Origin: Psococerastis gibbosa
Taxonomy: Eukaryota; Arthropoda; Insecta; Psocodea; Psocidae
DNA length: 64,000 bases
Direction of reading: 5' to 3'
Assembly: GCA_963971405.1 (NCBI GenBank)
Contig: OZ020486.1
Location: 24,141,419 to 24,205,418, forward strand
Under the pieces are notes generated by a model that saw nothing but the letters and a program-made list of their open reading frames with translations, did not search any database and had not been told where the DNA came from. Below, piece by piece: positions 9,344 to 53,214 of the stretch. The stretch's first letter is position 1. The number at the start of each line of letters is the position of its first letter. A program made the translations under genes and the position numbers.

Positions 9344-9346
9344 TAT

Positions 9347-20834: not shown

Positions 20835-21352
20835 CCCTTTCGGCTCTGGCCGATCAGGTGTAAGGAGATTCCGCAGACCCTAATTTTCCTCTGCGCTACC
20901 TACACTATGCATGTAATTAAAAAAAATGCTTCATTATTTTCTCGGTCACAACATCAACCCACAAAACAATCTTGTGTTCCAAACAATGAAGGCAATGAAC
21001 TTTTCCTTATCAAATTATTTTCACTTTGACTGGATGTCATCTTGAAATCGTTGATTTGTCGTAAAAAGTTTACCATTATCGTAGATAATAACAAGGGCTT
21101 TCAGTCAGATTTTGCTTGATTCCCCTGCGACCAATATTAACTGAGATATGAATTGTATACGGTTTTAATCGGCCGCCATCTCGTAACTAAATAGTGGATC
21201 TAGCTGGTTAACGAACTCGATCAAGACATTTGTATGATCAATTTTTGTGCCAAAATACATCAAAATCGGATAATATCTACGGAAGTTAGAGTGTTTCCTA
21301 AAATCGATATACCGTACATACATACATGCATACCTACATACATGCATACATA
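20835..21352. repeat. Host repeat D, left half (Polinton target)
   Basis: This stretch aligns, inverted, with about 59826-60335. Shared blocks are GGCCGATCAGGTGTA, AAATCGTTGATTTGTCGTAA, ATCTAGCTGGTTAACGAACT and CGATCAAGACATTTGT. It ends in a CATA/CATG microsatellite, inside which the Polinton inserted. The matching right half is 34989-35115. Confidence 0.8.
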
Positions 21353-21358
21353 CATACA
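21353..21358. other. Polinton target-site duplication, left
   Basis: CATACA immediately precedes the terminal AG of the element and is repeated directly after the terminal CT at 34989-34994. Six-bp duplications are the rule for Polinton integrases. Confidence 0.85.
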
Positions 21359-21371
21359 AGTAGATATAAAA

Positions 21372-21863
21372 GGGGGTTCCTGGGACACTTTTAGGCCACT
21401 CTTGCTTTTTACCTCCGGGCATGGGGGTTCCTGGGACACTTTTAGGCCACTCTTGCTTTTTACCTCCGGGCATCATTATTGTTCTAATTGTACATTGTCA
21501 GCCTCCGGCTATCACTTATTTTATACTACTTCTATGCTAACCTTGTAGCCTATAAAACCACAACACATCATATCACAGGGGGTTTCTGGGACACTTTTAG
21601 GCCACTCTTGCTTTTTACCTCCGGGCATCATTTATGTTCTTATTGTACGTTGTCAGCCTCCGGCTATCAATTATTTTATACTACTTATATGCTAACCTTG
21701 TAGCCTATAAAACCACAACACATCATATCACAGGGGGTTTCTGGGACACTTTTAGGCCACTCTTGCTTTCTACCTCCGGGCATCATTATTGTTCTTATTC
21801 TACGTTGTCAGCCTCCGGCTACCACTTATTTTATACTATACTTATATGCTAACCTTGTAGCCT
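21372..21863 (+). repeat. Tandem 154-155 bp units in the left end
   Basis: A 52-bp partial unit (GGGGGTTCCTGGGACACTTT to GGGCAT) is followed by units starting at 21424, 21578 and 21733. Each contains CTTGCTTTTTACCTCCGGGC, a CAGCCTCCGGCTA palindrome-like motif and GCTAACCTTGTAGCC. The right end has only the partial unit, one full unit and part of a third. Confidence 0.85.
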
Positions 21864-21957
21864 TTCTTCTTCTTCCCTTCTCTTCTTCTTCTTCTTCTTC
21901 TTCACACAGTGTAAGGGGGTCGCCCCCTCCTGTTATCGGACATCATTCTCATTGTTT
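21864..21957. repeat. CTT microsatellite and SINE target site
   Basis: A pyrimidine CTT run is followed by GTAAGGGGGTCGCCCCCTCC, a small GC hairpin, and the SINE target CATTCTCATTGTTT (21944-21957). After the SINE the same tetradecamer and another CTT run continue. Confidence 0.75.
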
Positions 21958-22171
21958 AAATAAATAAATAAATAAGGACTTTTTGTTCTATTACTAAGCC
22001 AACCTAGCGGAGTTAGGGCTATAAAGCCCTCTCTTACACTCAACTAGGAAGGCCCGGGACCGCCTGCTTTACATGCCCTCCGAAGCATGACCAGAAAATG
22101 TAGCAAGTGTAGGACTCGAACCAACAACCTTTCGGGTGAAAGTTGGAGTCCGTACCACCACTCTACATGTC
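21958..22171 (-). mobile_element. tRNA-derived SINE inserted in the Polinton left arm
   Basis: In minus sense: an A-box-like GTAGAGTGGTGGTACGG, the B box GGTTCGAGTCC, a conserved body (CGGAGGGCATGTAAAGCAGG; GGCTTTATAGCCCTAACTCC) and an (ATTT)n-type tail. It is bounded by a perfect 14-bp duplication, CATTCTCATTGTTT, at 21944-21957 and 22172-22185. Other copies in the window lie at 7450, 12738, 39681, 42205, 44727 and 46537. The insertion postdates the ancestral symmetrical repeat, because the right arm lacks it. Confidence 0.92.
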
Positions 22172-22492
22172 CATTCTCATTGTTTCTTCTTCTTCTTCAC
22201 GTAGCCTACATACCATATTTCGGGCGATTTCGCCTCCGCAATGATTATTTATTTGATTTACATCATTTCATAGTCTATGATTAAGATAATCTTTCACCTT
22301 CACCATTATTATTGAAGTAATAGTATGTTTCTTTCAACCATTGGTTTTTAATAATCATTATCTAATTATAAGCTTAAAACTAGTTATGTAATTAATAAAA
22401 CAAAAACAGAAATATTTAAAGAAATTATTCATATATTTACATTTCATATTATTGGTGTAGTTAACATAATACTTCAGTACATAATGAAATCT

Positions 22493-22798
22493 TCATTCTA
22501 GGATCTGTATGTTGACACTATTTTTTCCCCTATGGCTTGGAACGATGAGATACATCTCAGCTCCTGGAGTGACTTTGCTTCCTTGAAAGGCTGACAGGTA
22601 TAGTTGAGGTATAAAACACTCCACAACTTCTTTTTCCGGTCCTCGCAGTATCACTTTCACAGCTGGCCCATATTCTGTTTTGTCTATCTGCACTATTTTC
22701 AGTATTTGGTACTTAGCTCCAATCACCAGTTTTCGCATTGACATGGTGGGCCCGGCTTCTTGGTTGATGGCATTAACTTTATCACATAGAGATGCCAT
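22493..22798 (-). CDS. Small OB-fold-like Polinton protein (101 aa)
   Basis: A complete 101-residue frame starts at the ATG at 22798. The middle (residues about 25-85: YQILKIVQIDKTEYGPAVKV, then ECFIPQLYLSAF) has the alternating hydrophobic/charged strands and the Tyr-Gly-x-x-x-x-V turn of small OB-fold nucleic-acid-binding proteins. Similar short proteins occur in other Polintons, which is why a single-strand DNA-binding role in replication is plausible. That is inference; no catalytic residues are expected. The gene lies in the inner part of the left terminal repeat. Its leader and first codons are repeated at the right end (34591-34638), where the body is gone. Its leader is also shared with the polymerase gene. 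Confidence 0.6.
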   Translation of the reverse strand: MASLCDKVNAINQEAGPTMSMRKLVIGAKYQILKIVQIDKTEYGPAVKVILRGPEKEVVECFIPQLYLSAFQGSKVTPGAEMYLIVPSHRGKNSVNIQILE

Positions 22799-22880
22799 GT
22801 TCTAAGATTACACAAATTCACTTGTAAAGTTGGCGTAGTATTACTTGAATGAAGGTTTGGTCTCAACTAAGCCCCTCAAC
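22799..22880 (-). promoter_or_regulatory. Shared leader/promoter module, copy 1 (OB-like gene)
   Basis: The 80 bp upstream of the OB-like ATG (plus strand: ACACAAATTCACTTGTAAAG then TATTACTTGAATGAAGGTTT) recur upstream of the polymerase ATG at 34292-34368 in the same sense. They recur again, inverted, at the right end (34527-34590). Conservation in front of two different genes suggests a common promoter and 5' leader. Confidence 0.6.
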
Positions 22881-23201
22881 TGAGATGAGGGTGTATATCA
22901 GGTAAAATCATGTTGTGAGGGCCACAGCCGGAGGGGGATAGTTAAGTAATTTCTCCATTGCACCATATTTGTTAATGTAGGAATCGTTTCTTAATGTTGA
23001 TCTCTCATACACATCGGTGTATTATAGGCAGCTTACAACCTTAAATCAAATGACTGATTTGTCCTTCTGTACCTAAGGCACTACATTTATGGTACCCCAC
23101 CTAGTTCTAAATCGATTGTGTCTCATTATCTCTCTTTAATGACCATAATTAACCGGGTTGTATATGTAACATGTGTGAAATAGCATCAGTTGCAATTGAA
23201 A
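22881..23201. other. Polinton intergenic spacer
   Basis: Divergent spacer between the OB-like gene (-) and the first unknown gene (+). It contains a short ACAGCCGGAGG motif resembling the CAGCCTCCGGCT piece of the terminal repeat. No gene was recognised. Confidence 0.5.
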
Positions 23202-23897
23202 ATGAAGGGTGTCTTGACCACATATTATCCACTTCGTGATGGACTAAGCATTATTGTTGGTTTGCAATTCAAAGCATCAGCATTCGAAGTATACATCATA
23301 GTTGGTGATAAGGATCATGAAATTATATTCAATATGATCGAATGGCAGTCATGGTGTGCAACATTACAATCCTTTCGTTTATATCTACATAAGAAAACAA
23401 TGTGTGGAAATATGATATGGACTCCTAATTTCATCAAATCAAACCTGACGATGATGTTAACGAATGATAATGAATTGGAAATGAAGTCCTCATCATCACA
23501 TATTAAACTATCTAAAATAAATATTGAGAACATACAAGCGTTGAAAGCAATTCTTCATATTGTTTGCCATGAGTTGGAAAAGAAGAAGAGGTTGGCTAAT
23601 TTCCATCTAAAAAATATTATGGAAGAGATATTTATAGAGTTGGAAACAGATAATGTTTCAATGGAAGCTCTTTTACAGTTTGCCCAATCTCCAGCTCCAA
23701 TAGTAGCTACTATCGAGGATGTTCGCAGTAAACTATTGTGGAAGAAGCATCAAAATCAATCAAATCGTATGTATTTAGAAATTATAACCATCTATGAAAA
23801 TGAGTTGTGCTATGAGATACTTAAGCGCTGGTTGGAGCGAGCTAAAGTCATTATCAATCAGACTGTTGAACACGATGGAACCGCTGGGGATAATTGA
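23202..23897 (+). CDS. Polinton protein of unknown function A (231 aa)
   Basis: The first ATG of this open frame is at 23202, giving 231 residues beginning MKGVLTTYYPLRDGL. The protein is rich in Leu, Ile, Lys and Glu and mostly helical in appearance beyond residue 100. There is a Lys-rich helix around 115-140 (HELEKKKRLANFHLKNIMEE) and a second helical stretch at 180-225. An IEWQSW motif stands near residue 45. I see no signal peptide, membrane span, zinc cluster or catalytic motif. The end overlaps the start of the next gene by 23 bp, so the two are probably expressed from one transcript. I do not recognise the family. Confidence 0.75.
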   Translation: MKGVLTTYYPLRDGLSIIVGLQFKASAFEVYIIVGDKDHEIIFNMIEWQSWCATLQSFRLYLHKKTMCGNMIWTPNFIKSNLTMMLTNDNELEMKSSSSHIKLSKINIENIQALKAILHIVCHELEKKKRLANFHLKNIMEEIFIELETDNVSMEALLQFAQSPAPIVATIEDVRSKLLWKKHQNQSNRMYLEIITIYENELCYEILKRWLERAKVIINQTVEHDGTAGDN

Positions 23898-24366
23898 GTT
23901 TCAAGGTTTCAAAGATAATGAAAATAATTTCATCATCAAAGAATTGGCTATGGGCCCTGCATGCAAGAACCAGTATGAACATTGGTTTTTCCGTCCACCC
24001 TTTCCATTCACCAATCTTACAAATCAAGTAAAAAGCAACAACACATGGTGCACAAATAATCTCCATAAGCTTCGTTGGGAAGAGGGGAACGTGGACTACA
24101 TTCATTTAAAGAATATTTTACTAGAGTTTGCTAACCAATATGTTAGAATTGCTACTAAAGGAAAGGAGAAACAAGTTTGGCTTGCAGGAATACTAGAATG
24201 TGTTGTGTATGACTTGGACTCTGTGCTTCTGAGGAGTTTTGAGAAGTTACCTCATCTAGAAGCTAAGAAATGTATTCATACAGGAAACTGTGCAATGATC
24301 AATTTGAGGAAACTACAGAAATGGTTTCAAGATGTCAATTGTTTAATTGATGATGATGTTGATTAA
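23875..24366 (+). CDS. Polinton protein of unknown function B (163 aa)
   Basis: I choose the ATG at 23875 because the conserved-looking part starts there (MEPLGIIEFQGFKDNENNFI). The frame is open further upstream, but that stretch is the alternate frame of gene A. Notable motifs are FQGFKDNENNFIIKELA near the start, HWFFRPPFPFTNL about residue 40, and TWCTNNLHKLRWEEGNVDY about residue 65. I recall proteins with this FKDN...KELA and PPFPF layout from other mobile and viral elements of invertebrates, without an agreed function. An exonuclease-like fold, with acidic residues in the first strand, could be tested. The stop is 13 bp from the stop of the convergent integrase gene, and an AATAAA signal follows at 24367-24372. 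Confidence 0.75.
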   Translation: MEPLGIIEFQGFKDNENNFIIKELAMGPACKNQYEHWFFRPPFPFTNLTNQVKSNNTWCTNNLHKLRWEEGNVDYIHLKNILLEFANQYVRIATKGKEKQVWLAGILECVVYDLDSVLLRSFEKLPHLEAKKCIHTGNCAMINLRKLQKWFQDVNCLIDDDVD

Positions 24367-24379
24367 AATAAAGTTATGT

Positions 24380-25294
24380 TTATAAAATTTCCGTTTTATT
24401 AATCCATGTAGGTTTCGGGAAACCAAGCCACTTCACATACAATTTATCCTTAGACTTTTTCAACACTTTCTCCACCAAATATACATCTGTGTGCTTGGTT
24501 TTCTGCAACTCTTCCATATACCACGACCCTAATATAGGTTCACCATCCATAGCCTCAAGGAGATAGGTAGTAGGTCGAGTAGGTTGTACAAGACGCACAC
24601 GAAATACTTCTGTAGACCAGTTCGGTTGGTAACCCTTCTCAAATAAGGCTTTCTGCTTGCTGATTCTGACGGGATCACCCTCTCGAAATTTCTGTTTGGT
24701 ACTACCTTTCTCATCAACAGCTCTATACATAGATAATAATTTTGCTTCATGTTCTTCTCCCACATCGGCAGGACACATCTTAATGGTCCTATGCTTCGTA
24801 GTGTTGTATTGTTGCACTAAGCGAGGTACTAAATGTAACCACTTATAACCACCCTGCAAGCTGAATTCCTTCCACATTCGATTTTTCAGAGTGCGATTCC
24901 AACGTTCAATAATTGAAGCTTTCAGTGTAGAATAAGTAGCATAATGATTAATGTTATATTGTTTTAGAATACATTTCATTTGTATATTGAAAAATTCCAG
25001 CCCCATATCTGTCTGAAGGTGGGCAGGAGCTTGAGGAGCTCTATCGAGAATTTTTACAAAAGCTTCAGTTACATCCTTCATAGATTTAGTTTTAACTGCT
25101 TCTGCATAGCCGAACTTTGTGAATGCATTTATCACTGTTAGAATATATTTATATCCTTTATTAATCCTTGAATATGGAATCATTTCCACCAGATCTGCTT
25201 GCCATAAATCATGCATTCCTTTAACAGTCACATGGCGTCGGGGATAATTCCGTCGAGCAGGTCGATGAATTTCATCAACCAAAGCTTGTTTCAT
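24380..25294 (-). CDS. Polinton integrase (rve) with C-terminal chromodomain
   Basis: 304 residues. The DDE catalytic triad is visible: D34 in LWQADLVEM, D96 in LQTDMGLEFF and E130 in ASIIERWNRTLKN. The 33 residues between the last two also match the Polinton integrases I can recall. Residues about 268-300 (DVYLVEKVLKKSKDKLYVKW, LGFPKPTW) form a chromodomain, which in retrotransposons and Polintons can steer integration by binding histone tails. No N-terminal HHCC zinc domain is present in this frame. The start ATG overlaps the stop of the upstream gene as ATGA (25291-25294), so translation by reinitiation or a frameshift fusion with it is possible. The enzyme would join the element's AG/CT ends to host DNA and create the 6-bp duplication seen here. 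Confidence 0.95.
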   Translation of the reverse strand: MKQALVDEIHRPARRNYPRRHVTVKGMHDLWQADLVEMIPYSRINKGYKYILTVINAFTKFGYAEAVKTKSMKDVTEAFVKILDRAPQAPAHLQTDMGLEFFNIQMKCILKQYNINHYATYSTLKASIIERWNRTLKNRMWKEFSLQGGYKWLHLVPRLVQQYNTTKHRTIKMCPADVGEEHEAKLLSMYRAVDEKGSTKQKFREGDPVRISKQKALFEKGYQPNWSTEVFRVRLVQPTRPTTYLLEAMDGEPILGSWYMEELQKTKHTDVYLVEKVLKKSKDKLYVKWLGFPKPTWINKTEIL

Positions 25295-25992
25295 TGAATA
25301 ATAATATTTGCTTCTCGCAATTCGTTGATAATATTAATGATTTCGTTTTGATGGCTTGTATGTCCTGCGGCATGTGATGCATTAAGTAAGCGTAATCGTT
25401 CAACTAATTCATTTGGATCATTCCAATATTGATATTCACCACCAGATTTTATTCCAAAAAGCGGTTTAACAATATTTTTATATTTATAACGTTGACTGCT
25501 CCTAAGACGACCACTAGTGGTTAAATGAGCTCCAGTTCTTTCCAATATATCTTTATAGGCTTGTAAATCTTCCAAAGTATAGTTTTCAGGTTTGTTCAAT
25601 GTTAATAATTGATACAAACCCAATGTGCCTTGCCATGTTTTATCTTCGATTGTGATCGAATCATCATCAGCATTAAAATGTACAGGGTATGAACCCAGCA
25701 TAAATACACCTTCATTACTTCGTGTTACTCCATAGTATGTATCAATGGTTTTCCTATTATATTGATTAGGCATTAATAAGTCTAAATATTTGCTAACTCC
25801 AGGTTTATGAATTGCTCTTGCTATCGCTGTTTGTTTGTTCAGCTCAATTAATTCTTGTAGAGGTTTCAAGACAGGTTTTAACTTCCGCTCTTGCTGAGAA
25901 GCCTCATTGTGTAGATCACGTTTAAGATTAAGGTACTTTTGTTGCAGAGCTTTGCGTATGTTGATAATATTCTTGATAACTTTGGTATCCAT
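25291..25992 (-). CDS. Conserved Polinton protein preceding integrase (233 aa)
   Basis: Starts at the ATG at 25992. The N-terminal third is a Lys/Gln-rich coiled-coil-like helix (residues 5-60). The middle has the pattern I know from the protein next to integrase in many animal Polintons: YPVHFNADDDSITIEDKTWQ, then GTLGLYQLLTLNKPENYTLE, then DLQAYKDILERTGA (residues about 100-150). The C-terminus has a conserved WNDPNELVERLRLLNASHAAGHTS helix pair near 190-220. The function is unknown; the constant pairing with integrase, and the ATGA overlap here, suggest a structural or DNA-binding partner. No membrane span or catalytic motif is seen. Confidence 0.85.
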   Translation of the reverse strand: MDTKVIKNIINIRKALQQKYLNLKRDLHNEASQQERKLKPVLKPLQELIELNKQTAIARAIHKPGVSKYLDLLMPNQYNRKTIDTYYGVTRSNEGVFMLGSYPVHFNADDDSITIEDKTWQGTLGLYQLLTLNKPENYTLEDLQAYKDILERTGAHLTTSGRLRSSQRYKYKNIVKPLFGIKSGGEYQYWNDPNELVERLRLLNASHAAGHTSHQNEIINIINELREANIIIQ

Positions 25993-26039
25993 ATCTACTA
26001 CACCGTGTTATAGTCGAATGAATAATGATGAGTTACGTG

Positions 26040-26798
26040 TTAAGCAGAGTTATTTATATCTTTGAAATAGTGATCGAATCCCTGCCGATATCGTCCATCA
26101 TTTAATCCAAAATCTTTTGCAATAACTAGGAATGTATGTGACTCTTTCCATGCTTCCGCACAGAGTTTCATGAATGTCGCTAAATTCATATCTCCCGCAA
26201 CATGGTCTCTATACACATTCTTTATATTAAGCAAATCCTGTTTGAATAATACGATAAAATTCAAATTATCTCGCAGCAAATGTTTCGGAATGGAGGTATA
26301 GGTCTGAGTGAGATAGAAGCAATCAACCCCTTTATGACGACCCATAGAGTAGACATTTCGAATTTCCCCTTGAGATTCACATGAAACATCATCGAATATT
26401 AGCACAGAGTTAGGTTTGATGTCAGAGAGTGGTGTAACTGAATCGCCTGACCCTGTAAAAGTCATCCCACGAATAGAATTGATATTTTTCTCAAGCTGCT
26501 GGTATTTATGTTGAAACAATGTCTTGCAGAATAAGTACACATTTTCAAATCGTAGACCAAACGGATGATATATCATGCTGCATAGTAGGCTTGTTTTACC
26601 ACAACCTGATGGACCGCAGATTGTACCACGAATCGATGCAGGAAGTAAAGGCCCATTCTTTCTATTACTCCGTACATTTTCATCTTCTTGACTTAGAATC
26701 ACACTGAACTTATGTCTTTGTGGTACAAGCTTCATTATATGAGTGATTAAAAAAGCTATAAATACCACTGTATATACAAACATTTTACTCATTCGCAT
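26040..26798 (-). CDS. FtsK/HerA-type genome packaging ATPase
   Basis: 252 residues from the most upstream ATG. Walker A is GPSGCGKTS (62-70) and Walker B is SVLIFDDVSC (131-140). The downstream LTQTYTSIPKHLLRDNLNFIV region matches the sensor part of A32-like packaging ATPases of Polintons, poxviruses and relatives, which pump DNA into capsids. The first 21 residues (MSKMFVYTVVFIAFLITHIM) are strongly hydrophobic, which is unusual for this family. Met22 (MKLVPQRHKFSVIL, ATG at 26735) is therefore the likelier start, and the extra piece would then lie in the divergent promoter. The gene is head-to-head with the PLA2 gene. Confidence 0.92.
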   Translation of the reverse strand: MRMSKMFVYTVVFIAFLITHIMKLVPQRHKFSVILSQEDENVRSNRKNGPLLPASIRGTICGPSGCGKTSLLCSMIYHPFGLRFENVYLFCKTLFQHKYQQLEKNINSIRGMTFTGSGDSVTPLSDIKPNSVLIFDDVSCESQGEIRNVYSMGRHKGVDCFYLTQTYTSIPKHLLRDNLNFIVLFKQDLLNIKNVYRDHVAGDMNLATFMKLCAEAWKESHTFLVIAKDFGLNDGRYRQGFDHYFKDINNSA

Positions 26799-26810
26799 TT
26801 GAGAATACCT
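26736..26810. promoter_or_regulatory. Probable bidirectional promoter, ATPase / PLA2 genes
   Basis: This is the only DNA between the preferred starts of the divergent genes (26735 on minus, 26811 on plus). It contains TATAAATA on the plus strand (26757-26764) and a TATATA nearby. The packaging ATPase and the capsid cluster could be switched together from here. This rests on position and TATA-like motifs only. Confidence 0.4.
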
Positions 26811-27530
26811 ATGTTGAACAACATAATTAATAAGTTACCAATTGAAGCACATATCCCCGGCTATCAATTTTGCGGACCAGGCACTAAGTTAGAAAAACGA
26901 TTACTTCGTGGAGATCGAGGGAGAAACAAACTTGATCAAGCTTGTCGTGAACATGATATAGCCTATTCACAATCATCAGATATAACTAGTCGACACGTGG
27001 CTGATAAAAATTTGGCAGATCAAGCGTGGCAACGTGTAAAAGCAAAAGATTCGTCTGTAGGGGAAAAAATCGTTGCTTTAGGTGTAGCAGCTGCAATGAA
27101 AGTTAAACGAAAGCTGGGATTTGGGTTGAAGCGGAAAGTGTCTTTCAGATCACTATTGACTTCAGCTAAGAAAGCGATAAAGCTTACAAAACCACCCACT
27201 GTGGCGGATGCAATCAAGATCGCATATAAATCTGTGAAAAATTTAAAGGGAGATAAAAGGAAACCTCCTCGAATCATACCTATTGCCAAGACAGGTGGTA
27301 TATTACCACTTATCCCGATATTTGCGGGGCTTTCTGCCCTAGGTGCTCTCTCTGGTGGTGCTGCAGGAATTGCATCGGCTGCTAATAAAGCCCATAGTGC
27401 ACAGAAAAAGTATGAAGAAATGAAACGTCATAATCAAACTATGGAATCTATAGCCATTGGAAAAGGCTTATATTTAGCACCATACAAGAATGGGAGTGGA
27501 CTCTACTTACATCCTTATTCAAAAAACTAA
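26811..27530 (+). CDS. PLA2-domain minor capsid / pX-like protein (239 aa)
   Basis: From the first ATG (26811). Residues 18-75 form a parvovirus/adintovirus-type phospholipase A2 domain: the calcium loop YQFCGPGT (18-25), the catalytic pair in CREHDIAY (His48-Asp49), then HVADKNLADQAW. In parvoviruses this domain opens the endosomal membrane during entry. Residues 95-155 are very basic (KVKRKLGFGLKRK, KGDKRKPPR), fitting DNA condensation. Residues 162-192 are a Gly/Ala-rich hydrophobic segment as in adenovirus pX/pVI-like proteins of Polintons. The C-terminus has two GxGLYLxPY motifs. A possible adenain cleavage site, LSGG|A, lies in the hydrophobic segment. It heads the capsid gene cluster and is followed after 5 bp by the protease. 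Confidence 0.88.
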   Translation: MLNNIINKLPIEAHIPGYQFCGPGTKLEKRLLRGDRGRNKLDQACREHDIAYSQSSDITSRHVADKNLADQAWQRVKAKDSSVGEKIVALGVAAAMKVKRKLGFGLKRKVSFRSLLTSAKKAIKLTKPPTVADAIKIAYKSVKNLKGDKRKPPRIIPIAKTGGILPLIPIFAGLSALGALSGGAAGIASAANKAHSAQKKYEEMKRHNQTMESIAIGKGLYLAPYKNGSGLYLHPYSKN

Positions 27531-27535
27531 GTTGC

Positions 27536-27916
27536 ATGCCTCGGAACCGTCCACTGACTAATGTGGAACTTATAAAATTCGCCGCTAATGTTCCTCATTT
27601 TCGTGGTGTGTTCATGCGAAATGCACTACCTCACATACCATGGCAACATTATGAAGCTGGAATAATTAATTTAGATGATGCTATGGGACCCGGCACACAT
27701 TGGGTTGCTTACCGCAAGATTAGAAACCAAGTTATATACTTCGATAGCTTTGGAGACTTGAAACCACCTTTAGAATTGAAACAATATTTTCACAACTGTG
27801 CAATATACTACAACTATCAATCATATCAAACCTATTCAACATCAAATTGTGGGCAGTTATGCCTAAAATTTCTCTACATGAAAGATCCATTTTCCATGAT
27901 ATTAAAAGTTATATAA
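27536..27916 (+). CDS. Adenain-like maturation cysteine protease (126 aa)
   Basis: Short C5/C48-type protease. The His of GPGTHWVAYR (His55), the acid of VIYFDSFGD (Asp70) and the nucleophile of STSNCGQLCLKFL (Cys105) are in the order and spacing of adenovirus adenain (His, Glu/Asp, Cys). A Gln several residues upstream of the Cys could form the oxyanion hole. Homologues cut capsid precursor proteins such as the pX-like product encoded just upstream. At 126 residues it is shorter than adenain (about 200) and matches the compact Polinton form. All key residues are present, so it should be active. Confidence 0.93.
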   Translation: MPRNRPLTNVELIKFAANVPHFRGVFMRNALPHIPWQHYEAGIINLDDAMGPGTHWVAYRKIRNQVIYFDSFGDLKPPLELKQYFHNCAIYYNYQSYQTYSTSNCGQLCLKFLYMKDPFSMILKVI

Positions 27917-27944
27917 GCTATGCATATGTTTGATTTATTATATT

Positions 27945-28640
27945 ATGTCGCTAACATTGACACTAAGTGGTAACAAGTCATTCCTAGGTAGCAATTACTT
28001 CCCTCCAATTATACTTGAAGGTGTATGGGAAATCGGCTTGCTTGACCTTGAAACATATAATTCAATACCTAATCTCTCAAAGGGTGTGATTAAAATTATA
28101 AACGATTCAAAACCTCTGGAGGCTACAATAATTGAATTACCAATAGGATCTTACGAATTATCAGACATAGCTAAATATATAAATGAAGAGTGGGGTACTG
28201 AAATCGTATCGATAAGCGCGAATCGGAACACCATGCATTCCGTAGTTTGGATAATACTTGATGGCTTCACGATTGAAGTAAATGAAGAACTAGGATACCT
28301 GCTAGGCTTTGGTTATGATGGGGTGACATTTCTCACAAGTGGAATATATAAATCAACAGATAGCATTAAAATATCTAAAGTCAATGCAATTCGAATTAAT
28401 TGTAATATTACAAGAGGATCATATTTGAATGGTAGACCATCACATGCTGTTCATGAATTTTATCCTAATGTACCACCTGGTTATCGGATTGTTGAAGCAC
28501 CACATACAATCGTCTACCATGCTATAAATACAAATATACTTACAAGTCTAACATTAGACATTGTCGATCAAGACAACAACACGGTCGATTTCCGAGGGGA
28601 AACTATTACTTTACGTCTTCATTTACGTAAACAATCATGA
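27945..28640 (+). CDS. Penton-like minor capsid protein, single jelly roll
   Basis: 231 residues from the ATG at 27945 (MSLTLTLSGNKSFLGSNYFP). The frame is open for a few codons upstream but without another ATG. The opening strand, the YFPPIIL and NSIPNLS motifs and the C-terminal ITLRLHLRKQ are typical of the Polinton penton/minor capsid protein, which forms the fivefold vertices and has a single jelly-roll fold. The acidic YLLGF segment near residue 115 is also usual. It follows the protease by 28 bp, and its stop overlaps the next start as ATGA (28637-28640). Confidence 0.88.
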   Translation: MSLTLTLSGNKSFLGSNYFPPIILEGVWEIGLLDLETYNSIPNLSKGVIKIINDSKPLEATIIELPIGSYELSDIAKYINEEWGTEIVSISANRNTMHSVVWIILDGFTIEVNEELGYLLGFGYDGVTFLTSGIYKSTDSIKISKVNAIRINCNITRGSYLNGRPSHAVHEFYPNVPPGYRIVEAPHTIVYHAINTNILTSLTLDIVDQDNNTVDFRGETITLRLHLRKQS

Positions 28641-28810
28641 GAGTATATATTTCACAGCGGTATACACCATACAACATTCCAACTCGAGCTTCCACACAAG
28701 TACGCTGTGTTAAGCTCACTAATGAGAACAGACGATATTTACAATCAATAGGTTTTAAAATCCACGATGACATCAATGCTAAACGTGAAGGAGTCCATTC
28801 TCGTGGATGA
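28637..28810 (+). CDS. Small conserved ORF between penton and hexon (57 aa)
   Basis: The frame starts in the ATGA overlap with the penton stop and runs for 57 codons to the TGA at 28808. Its start MRVYISQRYTPYNIPTRAST and its body KLTNENRRYLQSIGFKI resemble a short basic protein I recall at the same place in other Polintons, so position and pattern both support it. The last 44 bp overlap the start of the major capsid gene in another frame. It is basic (many Arg/Lys), with no hydrophobic span. The role is unknown; a small capsid or cement component is a guess. Confidence 0.7.
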   Translation: MRVYISQRYTPYNIPTRASTQVRCVKLTNENRRYLQSIGFKIHDDINAKREGVHSRG

Positions 28811-29981
28811 AAGTTTAACACGTTATGAATACCATAAGATTGCACCCTATTCATCAAGCAGTCTAAATAATAATGATGAAATTCGCATACCAATCCATCA
28901 ACAAGATATACTTACTCTACCATGTGAAAGCCGACTGTATATTGAAGGTGTGTTAGAAAAAGGTGTGAAAACAATTGCTTATGAGGATGATGATGGGCTT
29001 AGTGCTAATGCTATGGCACACTTATTCTCTGAAATACGCTATGAACTCAATGGAATAACTATTGATCATGTGCGAAATCCTGGTATTACCACTCAGCTTA
29101 AAGGGTTAGTATCATTCACCGCTCAAGATGCACAACGTCTTACAAACAACTCATTTTATACAGATACAAATAAAACTGAGAGGAACTTTAATTTCTGTTT
29201 GCCATTGAAAATGTTGTTTGGATTTTGCGAGGATTTCCGACGAGTTCTACTCAACGTTAAACAAGAGCTTGTCTTAGTACGATCACGCAGCAATACGAAT
29301 GCCATGCGGGATATTTCAAACACTAAAGACTTGACATTGAAACTGACTACTGTGATGTGGGAAATACCTTTCGTAAGTGTGAGTGATAGTCAGCGCCTTG
29401 AATTGTTGAGTGTACTAAGGGAAAATATTCGGTTGCCGATTGGCTTCCGAACATGGCAACTGTATGAATATCCCAACATTCCCTCATCAACATCATCAAT
29501 TAATTGGCCTGTGCGAATGATTTCTTCAAGTGAAAAACCACGGTTTGCTATTATTGGCTTCCAAGCAGCACGCACAGATGATGTTAAGGAAGATGCTAGT
29601 GTTTTTGATCAATGCGCTATACGACAAATACAACTATTCCTCGGCTCAGAATGCTATCCATACCATCCGCTACAGGCGAACTTCAGCAAAAATACTGTTG
29701 CTGTATTATATGAAAATTTTCTCAATTTCCGGAAACACTACTACATGCAGGATGAAGCAACTCCAAACGTTTCCCGTAGTGAATTTCTAAAATCATACCC
29801 CATTTGGGTTATCGATTGCTCACGACAGAATGAGCTCATGAAAACTAGTGGTGTTGATATACGTTTGGAAATTCACTGTCAAACTAATTTCCCTGATAAA
29901 ATGAGTGCCTACTGTCTACTCATTAGTGACTGCTTATATGAATATGTACCTTTAACAGGTATTGTACATCAACTACAGTAG
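28767..29981 (+). CDS. Major capsid protein, double jelly roll (hexon-like)
   Basis: 404 residues. The DJR major capsid protein of Polintons shows the same landmarks: LTRYEYHKIAPYSSSSLNNN near the start (EIRIPIHQQD), FSEIRYELNG about residue 90, NFCLPLKMLFGFCEDFRRVL about 145, KPRFAIIGFQAARTDD about 260, then FDQCAIRQIQLFLGSECYPY and PIWVIDCSRQNEL in the last third. The protein would trimerise to form the icosahedral shell together with the penton protein. A second ATG three codons in (28776) could be the start instead. The frame is intact from end to end. It is the last gene of the forward cluster and converges with the polymerase gene. Confidence 0.93.
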   Translation: MTSMLNVKESILVDESLTRYEYHKIAPYSSSSLNNNDEIRIPIHQQDILTLPCESRLYIEGVLEKGVKTIAYEDDDGLSANAMAHLFSEIRYELNGITIDHVRNPGITTQLKGLVSFTAQDAQRLTNNSFYTDTNKTERNFNFCLPLKMLFGFCEDFRRVLLNVKQELVLVRSRSNTNAMRDISNTKDLTLKLTTVMWEIPFVSVSDSQRLELLSVLRENIRLPIGFRTWQLYEYPNIPSSTSSINWPVRMISSSEKPRFAIIGFQAARTDDVKEDASVFDQCAIRQIQLFLGSECYPYHPLQANFSKNTVAVLYENFLNFRKHYYMQDEATPNVSRSEFLKSYPIWVIDCSRQNELMKTSGVDIRLEIHCQTNFPDKMSAYCLLISDCLYEYVPLTGIVHQLQ

Positions 29982-30262
29982 AACCCTTGATATCCGGTAA
30001 ATGAATGTAAACCATTTAATGATATAACAATTTTATAATACATGTATTTTAATAGAAATCAATGTCGTTATAATCACTTAAGATAAACCTCCAACACAAG
30101 GTTAGTTAGGTTATTAATGTTTGCTGGTAATTAGTTCTAAGAGCCTTACAATCATTTACAATTAGGGTGAGGTATTTTAAAAGAAATCAATGTCATTATA
30201 ATCACTTAGTTAGATTATTTGTGTTTGTTCTGCTGGTAATTAGCTCCAGGGTTGCGATACAA
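29982..30262. other. Convergent MCP/polymerase spacer with direct repeat
   Basis: The spacer holds two imperfect direct repeats, 30045-30168 and 30172-30271. Each has GTATTTTAA(T/A)AGAAATCAATGTC, TATAATCACTTA and GCTGGTAATTAG. The second runs into the last codons of the polymerase gene. I see no canonical AATAAA for either gene; the repeat may hold the end-processing signals. Confidence 0.6.
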
Positions 30263-33200
30263 TTAGAGTGAAATGCGATAATGACCGTGAGCTAAACTAT
30301 CAATTCCATTACGACACACATACCGTTTATCATCATAAGGGCTGAGAGTGAGTTTTTGTTGTTTAATTGTAAAAAGTTTATGATCAATACTTTGAATACG
30401 GTACATTGGTTTACACGAGTCTTTTACACTGTAGGACTTAAATAGGGTATTGTAATAGTCTTGATGGGAAATATGATGTTTGAGTGTTGAGCGAACTATA
30501 CCTTTGCCCACTTTCTTTTCTTTTCCCTCCTCAAACAAGGAATACAATTTGGGGCGTAAAGCAACACATTGTAAAATGTGAGAATGAGCATTCTCATCTT
30601 TAAACGTCCCCACTTTCTTTTTATTTTCAATATTGTATAAGAGATGGTTTGAGGGATATACTGAGTTATCAAATAAATGGGGGTATGGCTTTAAATCAAC
30701 ATATAAATCATCACTCTCAACCTCATAAACCAGAGAATCTGTATCTGTTAAAATCAGTGTAGCTTTATCACCATACCTTTGTTTTACAAAGTTATAATGA
30801 AATTCATACATAACGACCTTAGATAGTTCCAGAACGGTTAGACCAACAAATATTGGCTTATTAAGTAAAATATTAGTTTTTTTTGAGCGGACTGCAATTA
30901 AGTCTTTTGAAAAAATCTGAAAATCTTTAAATGCGGGGGATGAGATAAGTTTGCTAGCTCGTTTGGTAGTGTTAACTAACTCTAATTTTGTGTGTTTTCT
31001 AACATTCTCCATTGTCTTCCCAAACATACTATTAATTTTCAATTTGTAAAAATCCTTCTCGAAATCATTACAAGCTAATTTTCGTTTTTCTGTGTTAAAA
31101 TCGATAAAGGGTCGCATCCAAGCGCTTTGTTTAAAAGCTAAAATTTTATGTGTATTTTTTAATTTTAAACCCAATTCTAAACATTGCTTCAAATTTCGAT
31201 AGTGTATAACATAGTTGTGTTTATCGTTTAAGTTGGGAATAAGCTTTGAGATTGTGGATGATAAAGATATATTATTTTCAGCAAGAAATTCCTTACAATA
31301 GGGGGAAATCATGTTTGAAGTAACAACACAATGTTCGGCTGCCAGTGGGTATTCATTATGTAAGTCGTGCAATTTTTGTGGATATTCCAAGTCCACCTGC
31401 AATATAAACCCATCATCCCCCTCGTCAGGTATGAGCATTACATCAAAGTTTTTAATTTCTTCCATATCCATCCAACGAAACCCACTGACAGGCAAAAATT
31501 GGCGCATCGCATGTCCGTACAAGTTAGTACAATCCCAATATACTATAAATTTGGATGGTTTATTTGATTCAAATTTTTTTAAGTATTTATTGTTACTTTC
31601 AGCAAATCTTTTTGAAATCATACTTATACCCCCGCGAATCCCAGCCTCACAAAACAAATGCATATTAGGATCAGTCAACAGCTCAATTTCTACTCTTGTC
31701 ATTTTTAAGCAGCTTTGAAGAGCTAGTCCTGGTGCTGTGTACATGTGACAAATTTCAAGGTTATCGTTTTCGAAACATAAGGCTCTGAAGGCTTCAAAAA
31801 CATCACAAAGAAGAAGGGTGTCTGTTAATACATATAAGTCTTGGTATTCCCCTAAATTCTTTATGTTAAAAACATTCCACACTTTTTGAGCGTGTTCATA
31901 TTGTTCTTGTGAAATCTCCTCTTGAGTTAATCGACTAAAAAATGCTTCGATTGGAGGCAAATGCTCATCATTAAATTTTGATTCATGCGTCATATATTCA
32001 TAGGGGAAGACACCTTTCCTCAACATTAAGTCTAACTTTTCACCCACAAAACATGTTTTCATAATTTGAAATTTATCTTTACCCACATCAACAAGATTTT
32101 TTACTAAAGAGTCTAATGAGGTGGCCATAAATTGGTATGTATCTAAAAAGCGTAACTCCCCAATACTGAAGGCTATATATTCCTCCATAGTTTTAGCTAT
32201 ACATGTAATTTTTATATTTTTTAGCTTCCCAACCCCTTGCATGATAAGATGTCCATCATAATGTCTCAAGTTATGCATAAAAACGGGGATATGTTTTGGA
32301 GTTCGAAAATTGCTCATATTACAGACATTATGTAATGCTTGTCTATATTTCCCCGTTATATGGCAGTGGTCTATTACTCGATCAGCTCCTAGTGGCTTTT
32401 GACAAACATTACAAATGATAGAGTTTTTAAAATTTTCTCTATCCTCATCAGTCATAATTACCGGTTTAATATTTTTATAAATTTCTAAAATTTCATCCTT
32501 AACATTTAATAGGGATTTCAAAAATACATCAACAGCATCGGTTCCCCTGTAAACTACCGGTTCTTTAAACTTATTCCCATTGATATCCACAACAACGTAG
32601 GAAAACCCTGATGGTATATGCATTGATAATTTTTCAGTGTTACAACTGGTCCCTTCAATGGGACTGAGAATGCTCTCGAAATCGGCATATATTCTATATG
32701 CTACAGGGATCATATATTGTGGCTTATCGAATTTCATAATACTTTTCTCCTTAGTTGGAAATGTGGTTTTTTGCGGATCATGTGTTGAGCAGAGTGGTTT
32801 ATGTTCGTGTAAGCGTTCAGCACTACTGAAGGGGTGTATACACCAACGGCAATAAAACTTTTGTTCCTTATGTTTCGTGATTGAGAAATTAAGTTTGTTG
32901 AAATTTTTAATAAGACAATAATGTGAATTTTTACCTTCAGTTATGTAAAGCAGATCTACTAGCTTATTATAATGTTGACTTTGTGATAAATATAATGGAA
33001 ACAATCTTTGTTCATAACCAAACACATTTACTCCGATATTATTCATTTTTTCAAATTTTGGAATGACTTGTAAAGATACTGGGTATGTTATACCTTTCAT
33101 ATTTAACTCCTTCTCACACTTTTTATAATTATGAACTCGCTCAGCGTGTATCTTTACTGGATGCAAGTATGCTAAAATTGACCATATAAAACATTTAAGG

Positions 33201-34291
33201 TCTTCATTTTTAATATTGATTACTGCTTTGGTGTTATATATTTTTTTAGGTAAAGGAATGTAACTACTACCACTGCATGGATTATATTCAGCAATATAGA
33301 TACTAAAACTTTTTAAACATTTCAACACCCACCCGCTTCCCATTGCTTGAAATTTATCTATTTTTATTAGAATTTGTTCAATCATTTGTTGATATTTTAT
33401 TGTGGGGTTATCACTTAGGAGAAGTTGTTCGTTTTTAGCACGAAACCACGCCTTAGTATAATTTTTATCGCTGTCGGGTCCACGTTCAAATTCAATATGT
33501 AGAGCTACATGCCATTTAATAGCTTTTAAAAGTTTTATGTTTTCAGTTGTAATGGTGTCAACCTCGCCTGTCATATTATTTAGATAAACAACTGGATCAT
33601 GTATGGTCATGTTTTTATAATTATATTGTTTTACAACACCATCTAGAGCTGTAGATGTTTTACATGCAAAGTTCTCATCGGTAGATAGCTCTCCCCCGCT
33701 CATAATTGTGCAATTATTTATATGATTAGTAAAATAGTCTCTCATAAATAATTCGTTGCAATTGAAACAATTAATAATATGTATGCTTAATATGTGGGTT
33801 TTCAAATTATACTTTCGAGTAAAAGGTGCTGAACAGAATTCACAAATAAATTTATGTTCAGGGATTTTAACAGATTCAAGATTCTTGTACTCACATGGAA
33901 AGATGGATATGCATTCTTTACATAGAACTGTTTCAGTAGTGTTGATGATTTCACCTCCGCAACTCTTGCATTTCCCTCCATTCCCAGTCGATGTTGGTTT
34001 AGGTGTGATTTCATATGGAAAGATGGATGTGCATTCTTCGCACAGAACTGTTTGAGCAGTGTTGATAATTTTCCCTCCGCAACCCTGACATTTCTCTCCA
34101 TTCATAGTAGATGTTGGTATTGGGGCAATTTCGACAGGTTCAGAATTCTCGTACTCACATTTAAAGATGGATGTGCATTCTTCACATAGAACTGTTTGAC
34201 CGGTGTTGATGATTTCACTCCCGCAACCATCACATATTCCACATTTATATTCACCCTCGTTCAGTTTCCTTTTCTTCATTGGGGGTGTCAT
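30263..34291 (-). CDS. Protein-primed family B DNA polymerase (1342 aa)
   Basis: Full-length, uninterrupted pPolB. The N-terminus has three tandem zinc ribbons (CxxC..CxxC at 20-39, 68-87 and 108-127), a C2H2 finger (150-171) and another Cys/His cluster (175-194). Exonuclease motifs: YADFES (Exo I, 535-540), NLRHYDGHLI (Exo II, 674-683) and YVLTDTLLLCD (Exo III, 820-830). Between Exo I and II lies a CNVC...DHCHITGKYR...HNVC treble-clef insertion (627-657) usual in animal Polintons. Polymerase motifs: YWDCTNLYG (A, Asp920), KINSMFGK (B, about 1085-1092) and LTDTDSLVY (C, 1181-1189). The enzyme would replicate the linear element from its terminal repeats with a protein primer. Its 5' leader is shared with the OB-like gene. 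Confidence 0.97.
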   Translation of the reverse strand: MTPPMKKRKLNEGEYKCGICDGCGSEIINTGQTVLCEECTSIFKCEYENSEPVEIAPIPTSTMNGEKCQGCGGKIINTAQTVLCEECTSIFPYEITPKPTSTGNGGKCKSCGGEIINTTETVLCKECISIFPCEYKNLESVKIPEHKFICEFCSAPFTRKYNLKTHILSIHIINCFNCNELFMRDYFTNHINNCTIMSGGELSTDENFACKTSTALDGVVKQYNYKNMTIHDPVVYLNNMTGEVDTITTENIKLLKAIKWHVALHIEFERGPDSDKNYTKAWFRAKNEQLLLSDNPTIKYQQMIEQILIKIDKFQAMGSGWVLKCLKSFSIYIAEYNPCSGSSYIPLPKKIYNTKAVINIKNEDLKCFIWSILAYLHPVKIHAERVHNYKKCEKELNMKGITYPVSLQVIPKFEKMNNIGVNVFGYEQRLFPLYLSQSQHYNKLVDLLYITEGKNSHYCLIKNFNKLNFSITKHKEQKFYCRWCIHPFSSAERLHEHKPLCSTHDPQKTTFPTKEKSIMKFDKPQYMIPVAYRIYADFESILSPIEGTSCNTEKLSMHIPSGFSYVVVDINGNKFKEPVVYRGTDAVDVFLKSLLNVKDEILEIYKNIKPVIMTDEDRENFKNSIICNVCQKPLGADRVIDHCHITGKYRQALHNVCNMSNFRTPKHIPVFMHNLRHYDGHLIMQGVGKLKNIKITCIAKTMEEYIAFSIGELRFLDTYQFMATSLDSLVKNLVDVGKDKFQIMKTCFVGEKLDLMLRKGVFPYEYMTHESKFNDEHLPPIEAFFSRLTQEEISQEQYEHAQKVWNVFNIKNLGEYQDLYVLTDTLLLCDVFEAFRALCFENDNLEICHMYTAPGLALQSCLKMTRVEIELLTDPNMHLFCEAGIRGGISMISKRFAESNNKYLKKFESNKPSKFIVYWDCTNLYGHAMRQFLPVSGFRWMDMEEIKNFDVMLIPDEGDDGFILQVDLEYPQKLHDLHNEYPLAAEHCVVTSNMISPYCKEFLAENNISLSSTISKLIPNLNDKHNYVIHYRNLKQCLELGLKLKNTHKILAFKQSAWMRPFIDFNTEKRKLACNDFEKDFYKLKINSMFGKTMENVRKHTKLELVNTTKRASKLISSPAFKDFQIFSKDLIAVRSKKTNILLNKPIFVGLTVLELSKVVMYEFHYNFVKQRYGDKATLILTDTDSLVYEVESDDLYVDLKPYPHLFDNSVYPSNHLLYNIENKKKVGTFKDENAHSHILQCVALRPKLYSLFEEGKEKKVGKGIVRSTLKHHISHQDYYNTLFKSYSVKDSCKPMYRIQSIDHKLFTIKQQKLTLSPYDDKRYVCRNGIDSLAHGHYRISL

Positions 34292-34368
34292 GTTGAAAGA
34301 TCACACAAATTTACTTGTAAAGTGGTATTACTTGGAAGAAGGTTTGATTTCAACTATGCTCCTCAACC
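34292..34368 (-). promoter_or_regulatory. Shared leader/promoter module, copy 2 (polymerase)
   Basis: Plus-strand ACACAAATTTACTTGTAAAG, TATTACTTGGAAGAAGGTTT and TCAACTATGCTCCTCAAC match the DNA upstream of the OB-like gene (22799-22880) base for base apart from a few changes and an 8-bp gap. The same block, inverted, lies at 34527-34590. Confidence 0.6.
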
Positions 34369-34526
34369 AATGTGTTACAGTTTTATGCAAGTTTCGAAAT
34401 TAACTATTATTAATAACCATGAGTCAAGTACAATTGGCTTAAGGTTAGCATATAACTTGAAGTATATAATAAGTGATAGCCGGAGGCTGACAAATTATGA
34501 TAGCTAGTTACACTATTCTGAGTTTA
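34369..34526. other. Spacer with stray terminal-repeat fragment
   Basis: It contains AAGTGATAGCCGGAGGCTGACA, preceded by AAGGTTAGCATA, a displaced fragment of the 155-bp unit of the terminal repeat. It separates the polymerase leader from the truncated OB-like copy. Confidence 0.55.
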
Positions 34527-34988
34527 GACCAAACCCTCATTCAAATAATACTAGGCCTACTTTACAAGTGAATTTGTGAAATCTTAGAACATGGCATGTC
34601 TATGTGATAAAGTTAATACCAACTATGAAATGATGTAAATCAAATAAATAATCATTGCGGAGGCGAAATCGCCCGAAATATGGTATGTAGGCTACAACGT
34701 ACAATAAGAACATAAATGATGCCCGGAGGTAAAAAGCAAGAGTGGCCTAAAAGTGTCCCAGAAACCCCCTGTGATATGATGTGTTGTGGTTTTATAGGCT
34801 ACAAGGTTAGCATAGAAGTAGTATAAAATAAGTGATAGCCGGAGGCTGACAATGTACAATTAGAACAATAATGATGCCCGGAGGTAAAAAGCAAGAGTGG
34901 CCTAAAAGTGTCCCAGGAACCCCCATGCCCGGAGGTAAAAAGCAAGAGTGGCCTAAAAGTGTCCCAGGAACCCCCTTTTATATCTACT
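34527..34988 (-). repeat. Right terminal inverted repeat, shortened form
   Basis: From the outside: a 295-bp block identical by eye to the left end (34694-34988), then a block equal to left 22201-22274, then a block equal to left 22750-22872. Two segments of the left arm are absent: the extra tandem units with CTT run and SINE, and the body of the OB-like gene. Confidence 0.85.
34591..34638 (+). pseudogene. Truncated 5' end of the OB-like gene
   Basis: After the same leader as at 22798, the frame begins MACLCDKVNT; the full gene begins MASLCDKVNA. After ten codons the sequence jumps to the terminal-repeat block that lies beyond the 3' end of the full gene, giving a 15-codon frame. It is the deleted second copy of a gene once present in both arms. 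Confidence 0.85.
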
Positions 34989-35115
34989 CATACATACAGT
35001 ATATATACATAACATTTTGAATGGCGGGTGGTTTTGGGCTCAGGGGGTTATGAAATGAAAAGTTGTGAAGAAATTTTCCGAAAGTCGAACATTGGTCGCC
35101 ATCTCAATAGGTAGA
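34989..35115. repeat. Target duplication and host repeat D, right half
   Basis: The first 6 bp (CATACA) repeat 21353-21358. The rest (AACATTTTGAATGG, GGTTATGAAATGAAAAGTTG, GAACATTGG and AGGTAGATGAATCTCC) aligns inverted with about 59690-59825. Joined to 20835-21352 it restores one repeat unit. Confidence 0.85.
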
Positions 35116-38297: not shown

Positions 38298-38690
38298 TTC
38301 ATAGATTTTAATAATAATACTAGATAACGAACTCTCCTGCATATTTTGAAACCAGCCGCCATTGCTATAATTGGATAAAAAACGTTGTTTACATTCATTT
38401 ACACCTTGAGTTCTTATGAGATTTCCTAACATTCTCTGTGAAAATTACTTTCAAAAGTTCAATCTTTCAGTTTATTTTCAGTGGATTTTGATCAATAGTT
38501 ACATAAAAGACAATATTAACTGAAACTAAATGAATATAAAATTTATTTAGTCGAGAAGTACCCATTTAAGAACAGGTACTTTGCGTTCATTCCATCCACT
38601 TATAGCAATGGCGGATGGCTTCACAACACTCCCTACAGAGAGCATGGGAGTTCGCTATCTAGTATTATTATTAAAATCTATGGTTAATTT
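38298..38690. mobile_element. Inverted-repeat element (about 0.39 kb)
   Basis: The arms are mirror images: left ATAGATTTTAATAATAATAC, TAGATAACGAACTC and CCGCCATTGCTATAA; right TTATAGCAATGGCGG, GAGTTCGCTATCTA and GTATTATTATTAAAATCTAT. The right arm is cut by the left boundary of the 2.5-kb tandem array, and only that half is carried in the later units. I cannot settle the class: no clear duplication is visible. Confidence 0.65.
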
Positions 38691-39680
38691 ATACAAGTAA
38701 TCAATAAGAAAGTATAAAGTAAAATCGTCAAAATATCATCAAAATCAGGTAGTTCTGTCATTGTGCTAGTGCCTCAGTGCCCTCTGAGCCCCCTCTGAAT
38801 CCGCCCATATAAAGAAAATTAAAACTTTCTTCATATTTTGAAAGGATTGAATGAGGAACATTTAATGCAAACGACAATTTATGTGCTGTCAGTTAGTCCA
38901 TCAAATCCCAATGAAAATAATGAACATCCGGGTCCCGGTTAGTGTGAAAGTAAATTTTGAAAACACAACACCCCGTGGGACCCCAGACACGTCACTGAAC
39001 TCTCTCTCAACCGCAAATTTAGCTCATATCGTCATATTTACACCGCACCTCATTCAAAAATAATCACACTGATTATTGTTGGTTTCCACTAAATTGAGAG
39101 GGACGTCCAATTTATGTTAAGATTCCATTGAATTCTCAAAAGAATTGGCGTAACAAAATAATGCACAGTAGCTTATCTCAGAGACGAAGTTATAAACATC
39201 AGCAGCCCTATTATGGCGATTTGCGATTAACACACTACCGGGTTTATTTCTTAATACCGCATTAGTAAGGTGTCACGAGACGGTGTTAAAAAATGCGCGG
39301 GAAATGTATAATTGAAGGATTTAAATAATAATAATAAATAAACATTAAAATGCACGGGTAGAATTTTGAATAAGAATTTTAATTAATGTGTCTACATCTA
39401 AGGAAGAAAAAATCGATAACTCTCGAAAAATATAATTTATCAATTTGAATTCCCCGCTCATTTTGCACTCATTTGTAAAAAGCTTACTATCCTCAGGATT
39501 CAAAAAAACCAATTGGACGTCAGTCATATAAGAATGGCCGAGCAATAATGTGTCGATGTTCCAAGCATCGCCATCACGATAAAATTTTCAATCTACATTA
39601 AAGTAGTAATATACAGTGCAGGGGGTTATTGCCCCCACCAAGTGGAAAAAATGTGAATAAAACACATTAATCAAGTCAAG

Positions 39681-39912
39681 ACATGTAGAGTGGTGGAACG
39701 GACTGTGACTATCACCCGAAAGGTTGTTGGTTCGAGTCCTACACTTCCTACATTTCCTGGCCATGCTTCGGAGGGCATGTAAAGCAGGCGGTCCCGGGCC
39801 TTCCTAGTTGAGTGGAAGAGAGGGCTTTATAGCCCTAACTCCGCTAGGTTGGCTTAGTAATAGAAACAAAACAAAAGTCCTCATATATTTATTTTTATTT
39901 ATTTATTAATAA
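39681..39912 (+). mobile_element. tRNA-derived SINE, family B (unit 1)
   Basis: ACATGTAGAGTGGTGGAACG, the B box GGTTCGAGTCC, the conserved body and an AT-rich tail (TTATTTTTATTTATTTATT). It was inherited by each tandem unit. Confidence 0.88.
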
Positions 39913-40992: not shown

Positions 40993-41140
40993 GCAATATA
41001 GAAGGGCTGAAAGTCCCGAATCAGTGGATTCAGGGAAGAGGGGCTGAGAACTGCCAACTGTTTCATTTAAACTGGTGCCCCCCCCCCTTGAAATCAGGCT
41101 CTGAATCCGCCACTGTTGCTGTGTATAGAATAATGCATAT

Positions 41141-48930: not shown

Positions 48931-48933
48931 TTA

Positions 48934-50821: not shown

Positions 50822-50829
50822 ATCACAAC

Positions 50830-53211: not shown

Positions 53212-53214
53212 TAT

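Follow-up and report, generated by a model that had tools for sequence, protein, structure and literature searches.

A recently amplified Polinton/Maverick family in the genome of Psococerastis gibbosa that may still move or make virus particles

The stretch of Psococerastis gibbosa DNA analysed here (64,000 nucleotides (nt), hereafter the window: positions 24,141,419 to 24,205,418 of contig OZ020486.1, assembly GCA_963971405.1) contains a Polinton/Maverick of the known insect type, the unusual aspects of which are its copy number and its youth. The features of the element are collected in Table 1. A preliminary description, made from the letters of the window, had presented a complete Polinton of about 13.6 kb with clean borders, AG...CT termini, identical 295-bp ends, a perfect 6-bp duplication, and open frames for polymerase, integrase, ATPase, protease and two capsid proteins. 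This is confirmed, with qualifications. The element measures 13,630 bp and reads AGTAGA...TCTACT at its ends, within AG-starting inverted repeats as in Polintons; the outer arms are 100% complementary over 295 nt, and CATACA stands on both sides. The frames of the integrase, the ATPase, the phospholipase A2 (PLA2)-like protein, the protease, the putative penton, the major capsid protein and the 1342-aa polymerase are all uninterrupted, although the identity of the penton found no backing from Pfam, the PDB or a usable model. The borders are clean and the element looks complete, but the copy in the window is not pristine: there is an internal deletion of ~547 bp in its right terminal repeat.

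Table 1. Features of the Polinton in the window (ORF, open reading frame; SINE, short interspersed element; dN/dS, ratio of nonsynonymous to synonymous substitution rates)
Feature	Position	Strand	Remarks
Polinton (whole element)	21359-34988		13,630 bp; 11 open genes
Target-site duplication CATACA, left	21353-21358		inside (TACA)n
Target-site duplication CATACA, right	34989-34994		
Left terminal inverted repeat, outer 295 nt	21359-21653	+	identical to right end
Right terminal inverted repeat, 295 nt	34694-34988	-	without equivalent of ~21654-22200
155-bp tandem repeats within terminal repeat	21423-21863	+	
SINE-like repeat nested in terminal repeat	21957-22170	-	14-bp duplication
Inner end of ~916-bp family terminal repeat	22201-22274	+	74 nt identical to 34622-34695
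101-aa ORF, function unassigned	22493-22798	-	B-subfamily relative 82%, dN/dS 0.29
ORF1, orphan, 231 aa	23202-23897	+	B-subfamily relative 77%, dN/dS 0.38
ORF2, 163 aa, DnaQ/DEDDh-like predicted fold	23875-24366	+	dN/dS 0.31
Retroviral-type integrase, 304 aa	24380-25294	-	Pfam rve PF00665 6.4e-10
Conserved 233-aa protein, function unassigned	25291-25992	-	overlaps integrase by 4 nt
A32-type packaging ATPase	26040-26798	-	Pox_A32 7.4e-9; Walker-like motifs
Protein with N-terminal PLA2-like domain (parvovirus VP1 type)	26799-27530	+	Phospholip_A2_4 8.5e-14
Adenain-like cysteine protease, 126 aa	27536-27916	+	Peptidase_C5 E 0.03; H/D/C motifs
Putative minor capsid (penton) protein	27930-28640	+	position and size only
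Double jelly-roll major capsid protein, 404 aa	28767-29981	+	PF21738 1.9e-92
PolB-type DNA polymerase, 1342 aa	30263-34291	-	ordered catalytic motifs
Paralogous repeat copy without insertion (empty site)	59501-60450	-	

The CATACA duplication by itself would be weak evidence of insertion because the left flank of the element is a (TACA)n microsatellite (21315-21358). Its borders are supported, however, by an empty-site paralogue and by the perfect duplications at all eight other copies described below, which together rule out that the 6-bp repeat is a mere microsatellite. Both flanks belong to a dispersed repeat and match a single copy of it elsewhere in the window at ~82-84% identity, the left one as far as the point of insertion, the right one from just beyond it; the junction falls within the microsatellite, of which the paralogue has a shorter run, and its exact base is therefore blurred.

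The perfect 295 nt are the outer part only of the inverted repeat of the family, which spans ~916 bp (21359-22274) in other copies of subfamily A, that of the window, as opposed to B, a second, related subfamily. The nested SINE-like repeat, of which there are further copies elsewhere in the window, did not enter the window copy alone: all 20 other arms examined span this region, so that the repeat was captured before the burst. A tandem duplication of ~283 bp occurs in five of these 20 arms. The innermost repeat segment (22768-22871 versus 34518-34621) is 91% identical between the arms, compared with 100% for the outer 295 and 74 nt, and seems to escape homogenisation.

Profile matches above the Pfam cut-offs identify the integrase (PF00665, 39.6 bits, cut-off 32.6), the packaging ATPase (PF04665, 35.9 bits, cut-off 22.8), the PLA2-like protein (52 bits) and the major capsid protein (PF21738, 310 bits, cut-off 27), the last of which has 1085 relatives, the best 66% identical; among the 120 relatives listed, those named to species are insects, at 41-42% identity. 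The protease falls below the cut-off (PF00770, 14.5 bits against 21.3) and has its H, D and C motifs in order. In the case of the polymerase, no PolB profile matched at E<=10, so the assignment rests on the order of the catalytic motifs within the 1342-aa frame, which we take to be the exonuclease, A, B and C motifs. The same protein contains a stretch resembling EndoVII that scores under the cut-off (E 1.9e-4; 21.7 bits against 23.6) and zinc-ribbon-like repeats at the N-terminus, where three 120-bp direct repeats (33891-34274) encode tandem CxxC...CxxC units. The integrase shows chromodomain-like residues by eye only, against what we presume to be the chromodomain pattern, and no Pfam chromo family matched at E<=1. 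A Cys motif at residue 367 and a His motif at residue 457 of the polymerase belong to a putative OTU-like region, at a place matching that of the OTU-like domain of polinton polymerases in the available text of PMC11071308. We adopt the Polinton/Maverick label; the features that would point to the Alpha group of adintoviruses, namely, the OTU-like region and the chromodomain-like residues, are putative only.

The remaining genes are less readily named. The penton is a putative assignment by place and size: no Pfam family matched, the PDB sequence search gave chance matches only, and the single-sequence structural model was unusable (predicted local distance difference test, pLDDT, 31). Sequence searches of the PDB with the polymerase, the penton, the capsid alignment and the ORF2 alignment reached only ~10 to 15 bits, which we read as chance, and the 101-aa ORF had no matches there; scans of IMG/VR with the capsid protein, the polymerase and the capsid alignment, and of INPHARED with the capsid protein, gave nothing informative. 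The nearest viral model to the predicted fold of ORF2 is an uncharacterised protein of Drosophila-associated adintovirus 2, and ORF2, with its DnaQ fold, is without the usual first D-x-E motif and lies as near to the Maelstrom domain as to many exonucleases. For ORF1, no relative was found among 5.8 billion proteins. That ORF1 and ORF2 are a single broken gene is ruled out by the separate ATG of ORF2 at 23875 and by the retention of both frames in B. The 101-aa ORF lies in the left arm of the window copy and points outward; in two B copies it points inward, near the right end in one and near the left in the other (L062, L063), and these differences in position and direction imply that the arm was rearranged between the subfamilies. 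Codon-usage scores of ORF1, ORF2 and the 101-aa ORF exceed the 99th percentile of flank segments, which proves nothing because two presumably spurious ORFs (28606-28893 and 33756-34055) do so as well.

The preliminary description had singled out the element as apparently intact in a class that is mostly fragmented and had named many diverged ends as an argument against recent activity. The element is not a lone survivor: the window copy is one of dozens of nearly identical copies in the 409-Mb assembly (68 contigs), for which matches were listed best-first, the window being included in the counts. The 295-nt end occurs at at least 40 full-length places with 100% identity, the two ends in the window among them (the best 40 of 167 candidates scored), whereas the other 41 matches listed are shorter and 89-95% identical, most of them falling on the adjacent tandem unit within these arms; given the best-first order, diverged ends could exist outside the list. 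We read the 40 perfect ends as 15 pairs facing each other at distances of 8 to 16 kb, plus 10 for which the list has no partner. Among the best 130 of 827 integrase candidates, at least 47 belong to A (99-100% identity, all open) and at least 83 to B (92-93%, 79 open); among the best 103 of 879 capsid candidates, 42 are A genes at 100% as displayed, 41 of them stop-free, and 61 are B genes at 92-93% with no stops. With matches taken best-first, the intact share is not an estimate for the whole family. The polymerase frame is full in 14 of 17 A copies, and in four of the 17, a stretch of 4,099 bp shows no difference from the window. All eight other A pairs that were read have perfect 6-bp duplications, and their outer flanks cross-match at three locus pairs only, as dispersed repeats. 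Subfamily B, with a protein identity to A of 77-93%, has a similar end and 6-bp duplications in four of the five copies in which both ends were located (eight fetched).

The divergence among copies is minimal. Of 20 sampled A copies, four match the window exactly across the 2,412-bp capsid region, 15 show 1 to 14 base differences from it, and the last shows 96. Pairwise comparison in this region gives a median difference of 0.17% within A (210 pairs from 21 sequences) and 0.21% within B (190 pairs from 20 sequences), compared with ~13.5% between the subfamilies; these counts retain the outliers L030 (96 mismatches), L043 and L048 (~250 each), and the divergences are possibly lowered by the choice of copies from a list ranked by protein identity. 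If substitution rates between 2.8e-9 and 1e-8 per site per year are assumed, the two medians correspond to roughly 0.1 to 0.4 million years. Near-identity within a single assembly is also what would be seen if free viral DNA had been scaffolded into chromosomes, or under contamination, but the target-site duplications, the distinct flanks and the paralogous empty site leave such an artefact with almost no credibility. An old family kept alike by gene conversion or segmental duplication would fit the homogenised arms of the terminal repeats and the tandem segmental copying seen in the window (a 2.5-kb triplication at 38615-46187); each of the eight pairs has its own perfect duplication and flank, however, and on many contigs the identity includes the capsid and polymerase DNA as well, so we regard this scenario as very improbable. 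By far the most probable interpretation is that an insect-type Polinton/Maverick was recently amplified in the arthropod germline, the element being one of its integrated copies, an adintovirus-like provirus.

To gauge constraint, the genes of the window were compared with those of B, each taken from one of four B copies. The dN/dS values are 0.11 for the integrase, 0.14 for the capsid protein, 0.18 for the PLA2-like protein, 0.20 for the ATPase, 0.22 each for the protease, the 233-aa protein and the polymerase, and 0.51 for the penton; with the values in Table 1 for the remaining ORFs, the bootstrap upper limits are below 1 for all 11 genes (the highest, 0.80, for the penton). A stop counted inside the B ATPase falls at the beginning of the gene and is followed directly by an open frame of 249 aa; we take it to mean that B uses a different start codon. 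The substitution patterns indicate that all 11 genes are under purifying selection between the subfamilies, from which it follows that the three accessory ORFs (the 101-aa ORF, ORF1 and ORF2) behave as real genes and that the capsid gene is constrained as much as the replication genes. These values bear on the possibility that the element is a purely intracellular, self-synthesising transposon of germ cells that forms no particles and carries its capsid genes as passengers. Intracellular movement alone would yield the copies and duplications observed, and the available text of PMC8097293 states that no Maverick particles had been seen; passengers should drift, however, and the capsid gene, at a value between those of the integrase and the polymerase, is as constrained as they are, and the protease, ATPase and PLA2 genes lie at 0.18-0.22, even if the putative penton is looser. 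We consider the passenger scenario unlikely, albeit the most serious of the competing explanations. Because of the purifying selection, a particle-forming step is probable, and the same argument for virions has been made for cyprinid Mavericks in PMC8097293, as far as the available text goes.

Several observations weigh against recent spread of an intact, functional element. The right arm of the window copy is missing ~547 bp that each of 12 other right arms has; degraded copies are under-counted because the searches score the best candidates first; one of the eight A duplications lies within a TTCC microsatellite, and one of the five B copies has no matching duplication. Two of the 17 A polymerase regions are broken, and one has an altered N-terminus (the N-terminal arrangement is different in copy L069). 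Selection was measured between the subfamilies and not since the last burst. Within A, variants of the polymerase (21 nonsynonymous, 9 synonymous, 1 stop; random expectation 4.1 to 1) and of the penton (9 nonsynonymous, 3 synonymous, 1 stop; random expectation 3.3 to 1), counted without L030 for the penton and L065 and L069 for the polymerase (gaps or short matches), suggest weak or no constraint, as expected for copies after insertion; the within-A capsid count (8 synonymous, 1 nonsynonymous, 1 stop) is set aside, since those copies come from the list ranked by protein identity. On balance, the spread of the family is recent, and its members may still be mobile or form virions, both being inferred from these data.

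A cycle for the amplified Polinton can be outlined in conditional terms. Starting at the terminal repeats, the polymerase would replicate the linear element with a protein primer, and the integrase would insert the linear product, thereby generating the 6-bp duplication seen at the window and at the eight A pairs. The capsid protein, the protease, the packaging ATPase and the PLA2-like protein would build a particle for transfer from cell to cell or from host to host. The SINE-like repeat had entered the terminal repeat ahead of the burst, and both arms of other copies now carry it.

Some copies depart from this linear layout. Two of the eight A pairs are palindromic (contig C15, 12573821-12581961; contig C12, 12807519-12823935): in each, both ends consist of the polymerase-side arm, with a likeness between them that extends for at least 1,795 bp (99.94% and 100%, respectively), and the 6-bp duplications are intact. 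Such integrated palindromes probably arose by snap-back or template switching during linear replication. Oppositely oriented integrase genes close together, ~0.8 kb apart on C19 (6478333-6480940) and 6.3 kb apart on C2 (38102698-38110826), suggest further palindromes of the other type, and at C1:43547395-43559198, two end repeats lie in the same orientation; all three loci are probably palindromic or rearranged copies. A narrow literature search found no report of palindromic integrated Polintons, which is a thin basis for a claim of novelty. The boldest reading, in which the Polinton is active today, making particles, reinfecting the germline and integrating from protein-primed linear DNA, of whose replication the palindromes are the footprint, with ORF2 acting against host small-RNA silencing, strikes us as a long shot.

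Comparison with known systems, made against the available text of the reports cited, places the element close to the Mavericks 1 and 2 of Spodoptera frugiperda (PMC5803895), with which it shares the integrase, the A32-type ATPase, the adenain-like protease, the PLA2-domain protein, a PolB with an EndoVII-like stretch, at least nine intact ORFs and two lineages per genome. The Spodoptera lineages are 52% identical on average, whereas A and B are 77-93% identical in protein; their integrase has a chromodomain by CDD, and their PLA2 protein was read as a capsid protein. ORF7 there (404 aa, no known domain) equals the capsid protein described here in length, and the source leaves copy number unresolved, whereas here there are dozens of near-identical copies (PMC5803895). 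With Alpha adintoviruses, compared by description only, the element shares the integrase, a hexon-type capsid protein and a PolB with a putative OTU-like region, and differs in being an integrated multicopy family (PMC11071296). In common with vertebrate Mavericks are the terminal inverted repeats, the 6-bp duplications, the intronless core genes and purifying selection on these genes, capsid genes included; for those Mavericks, the largest number of intact copies in a single genome is 38 and the total in 17 species is 134, and the at least 47 A and at least 79 B open integrases exceed 38, with genes, not whole intact copies, being counted here (PMC8097293). Maverick/Polinton content is abundant also in wasps and ants, amounting to 1.452% of the Nasonia vitripennis genome, with no count of near-identical full-length copies given in the available text (PMC6035795).

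The family bears on the question of whether animal Polintons produce virions today. In a host with dozens of near-identical copies that have open genes, and with two young subfamilies, insertion polymorphism, expression and particles can be directly searched for, and the capsid genes under purifying selection, together with the apparent by-products of replication that have become integrated, add to the value of this host.

The surroundings of the element hold other recent or repetitive structures. Between 38615 and 46187, three head-to-tail copies of a ~2,523-bp unit, ~99.9% identical, reflect either a very recent tandem event or an assembly effect. Two palindromic repeats of ~400 bp (8946-9346 and 52814-53214), 95% identical to each other, look like a young family of the miniature inverted-repeat transposable element (MITE) type. 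Scans of the window for tRNAs and Rfam families gave nothing informative, and Pfam searches with five other ORFs and the three forward frames of 46501-54002 named no host gene. Exact (TTAGG)6 30-mers, TTAGG being the arthropod telomere repeat, number 13,642 in forward and 7,517 in reverse orientation across the genome, compared with 0 for the reversed-pattern control, in keeping with an arthropod host, and the places listed lie near one end of contig C1.

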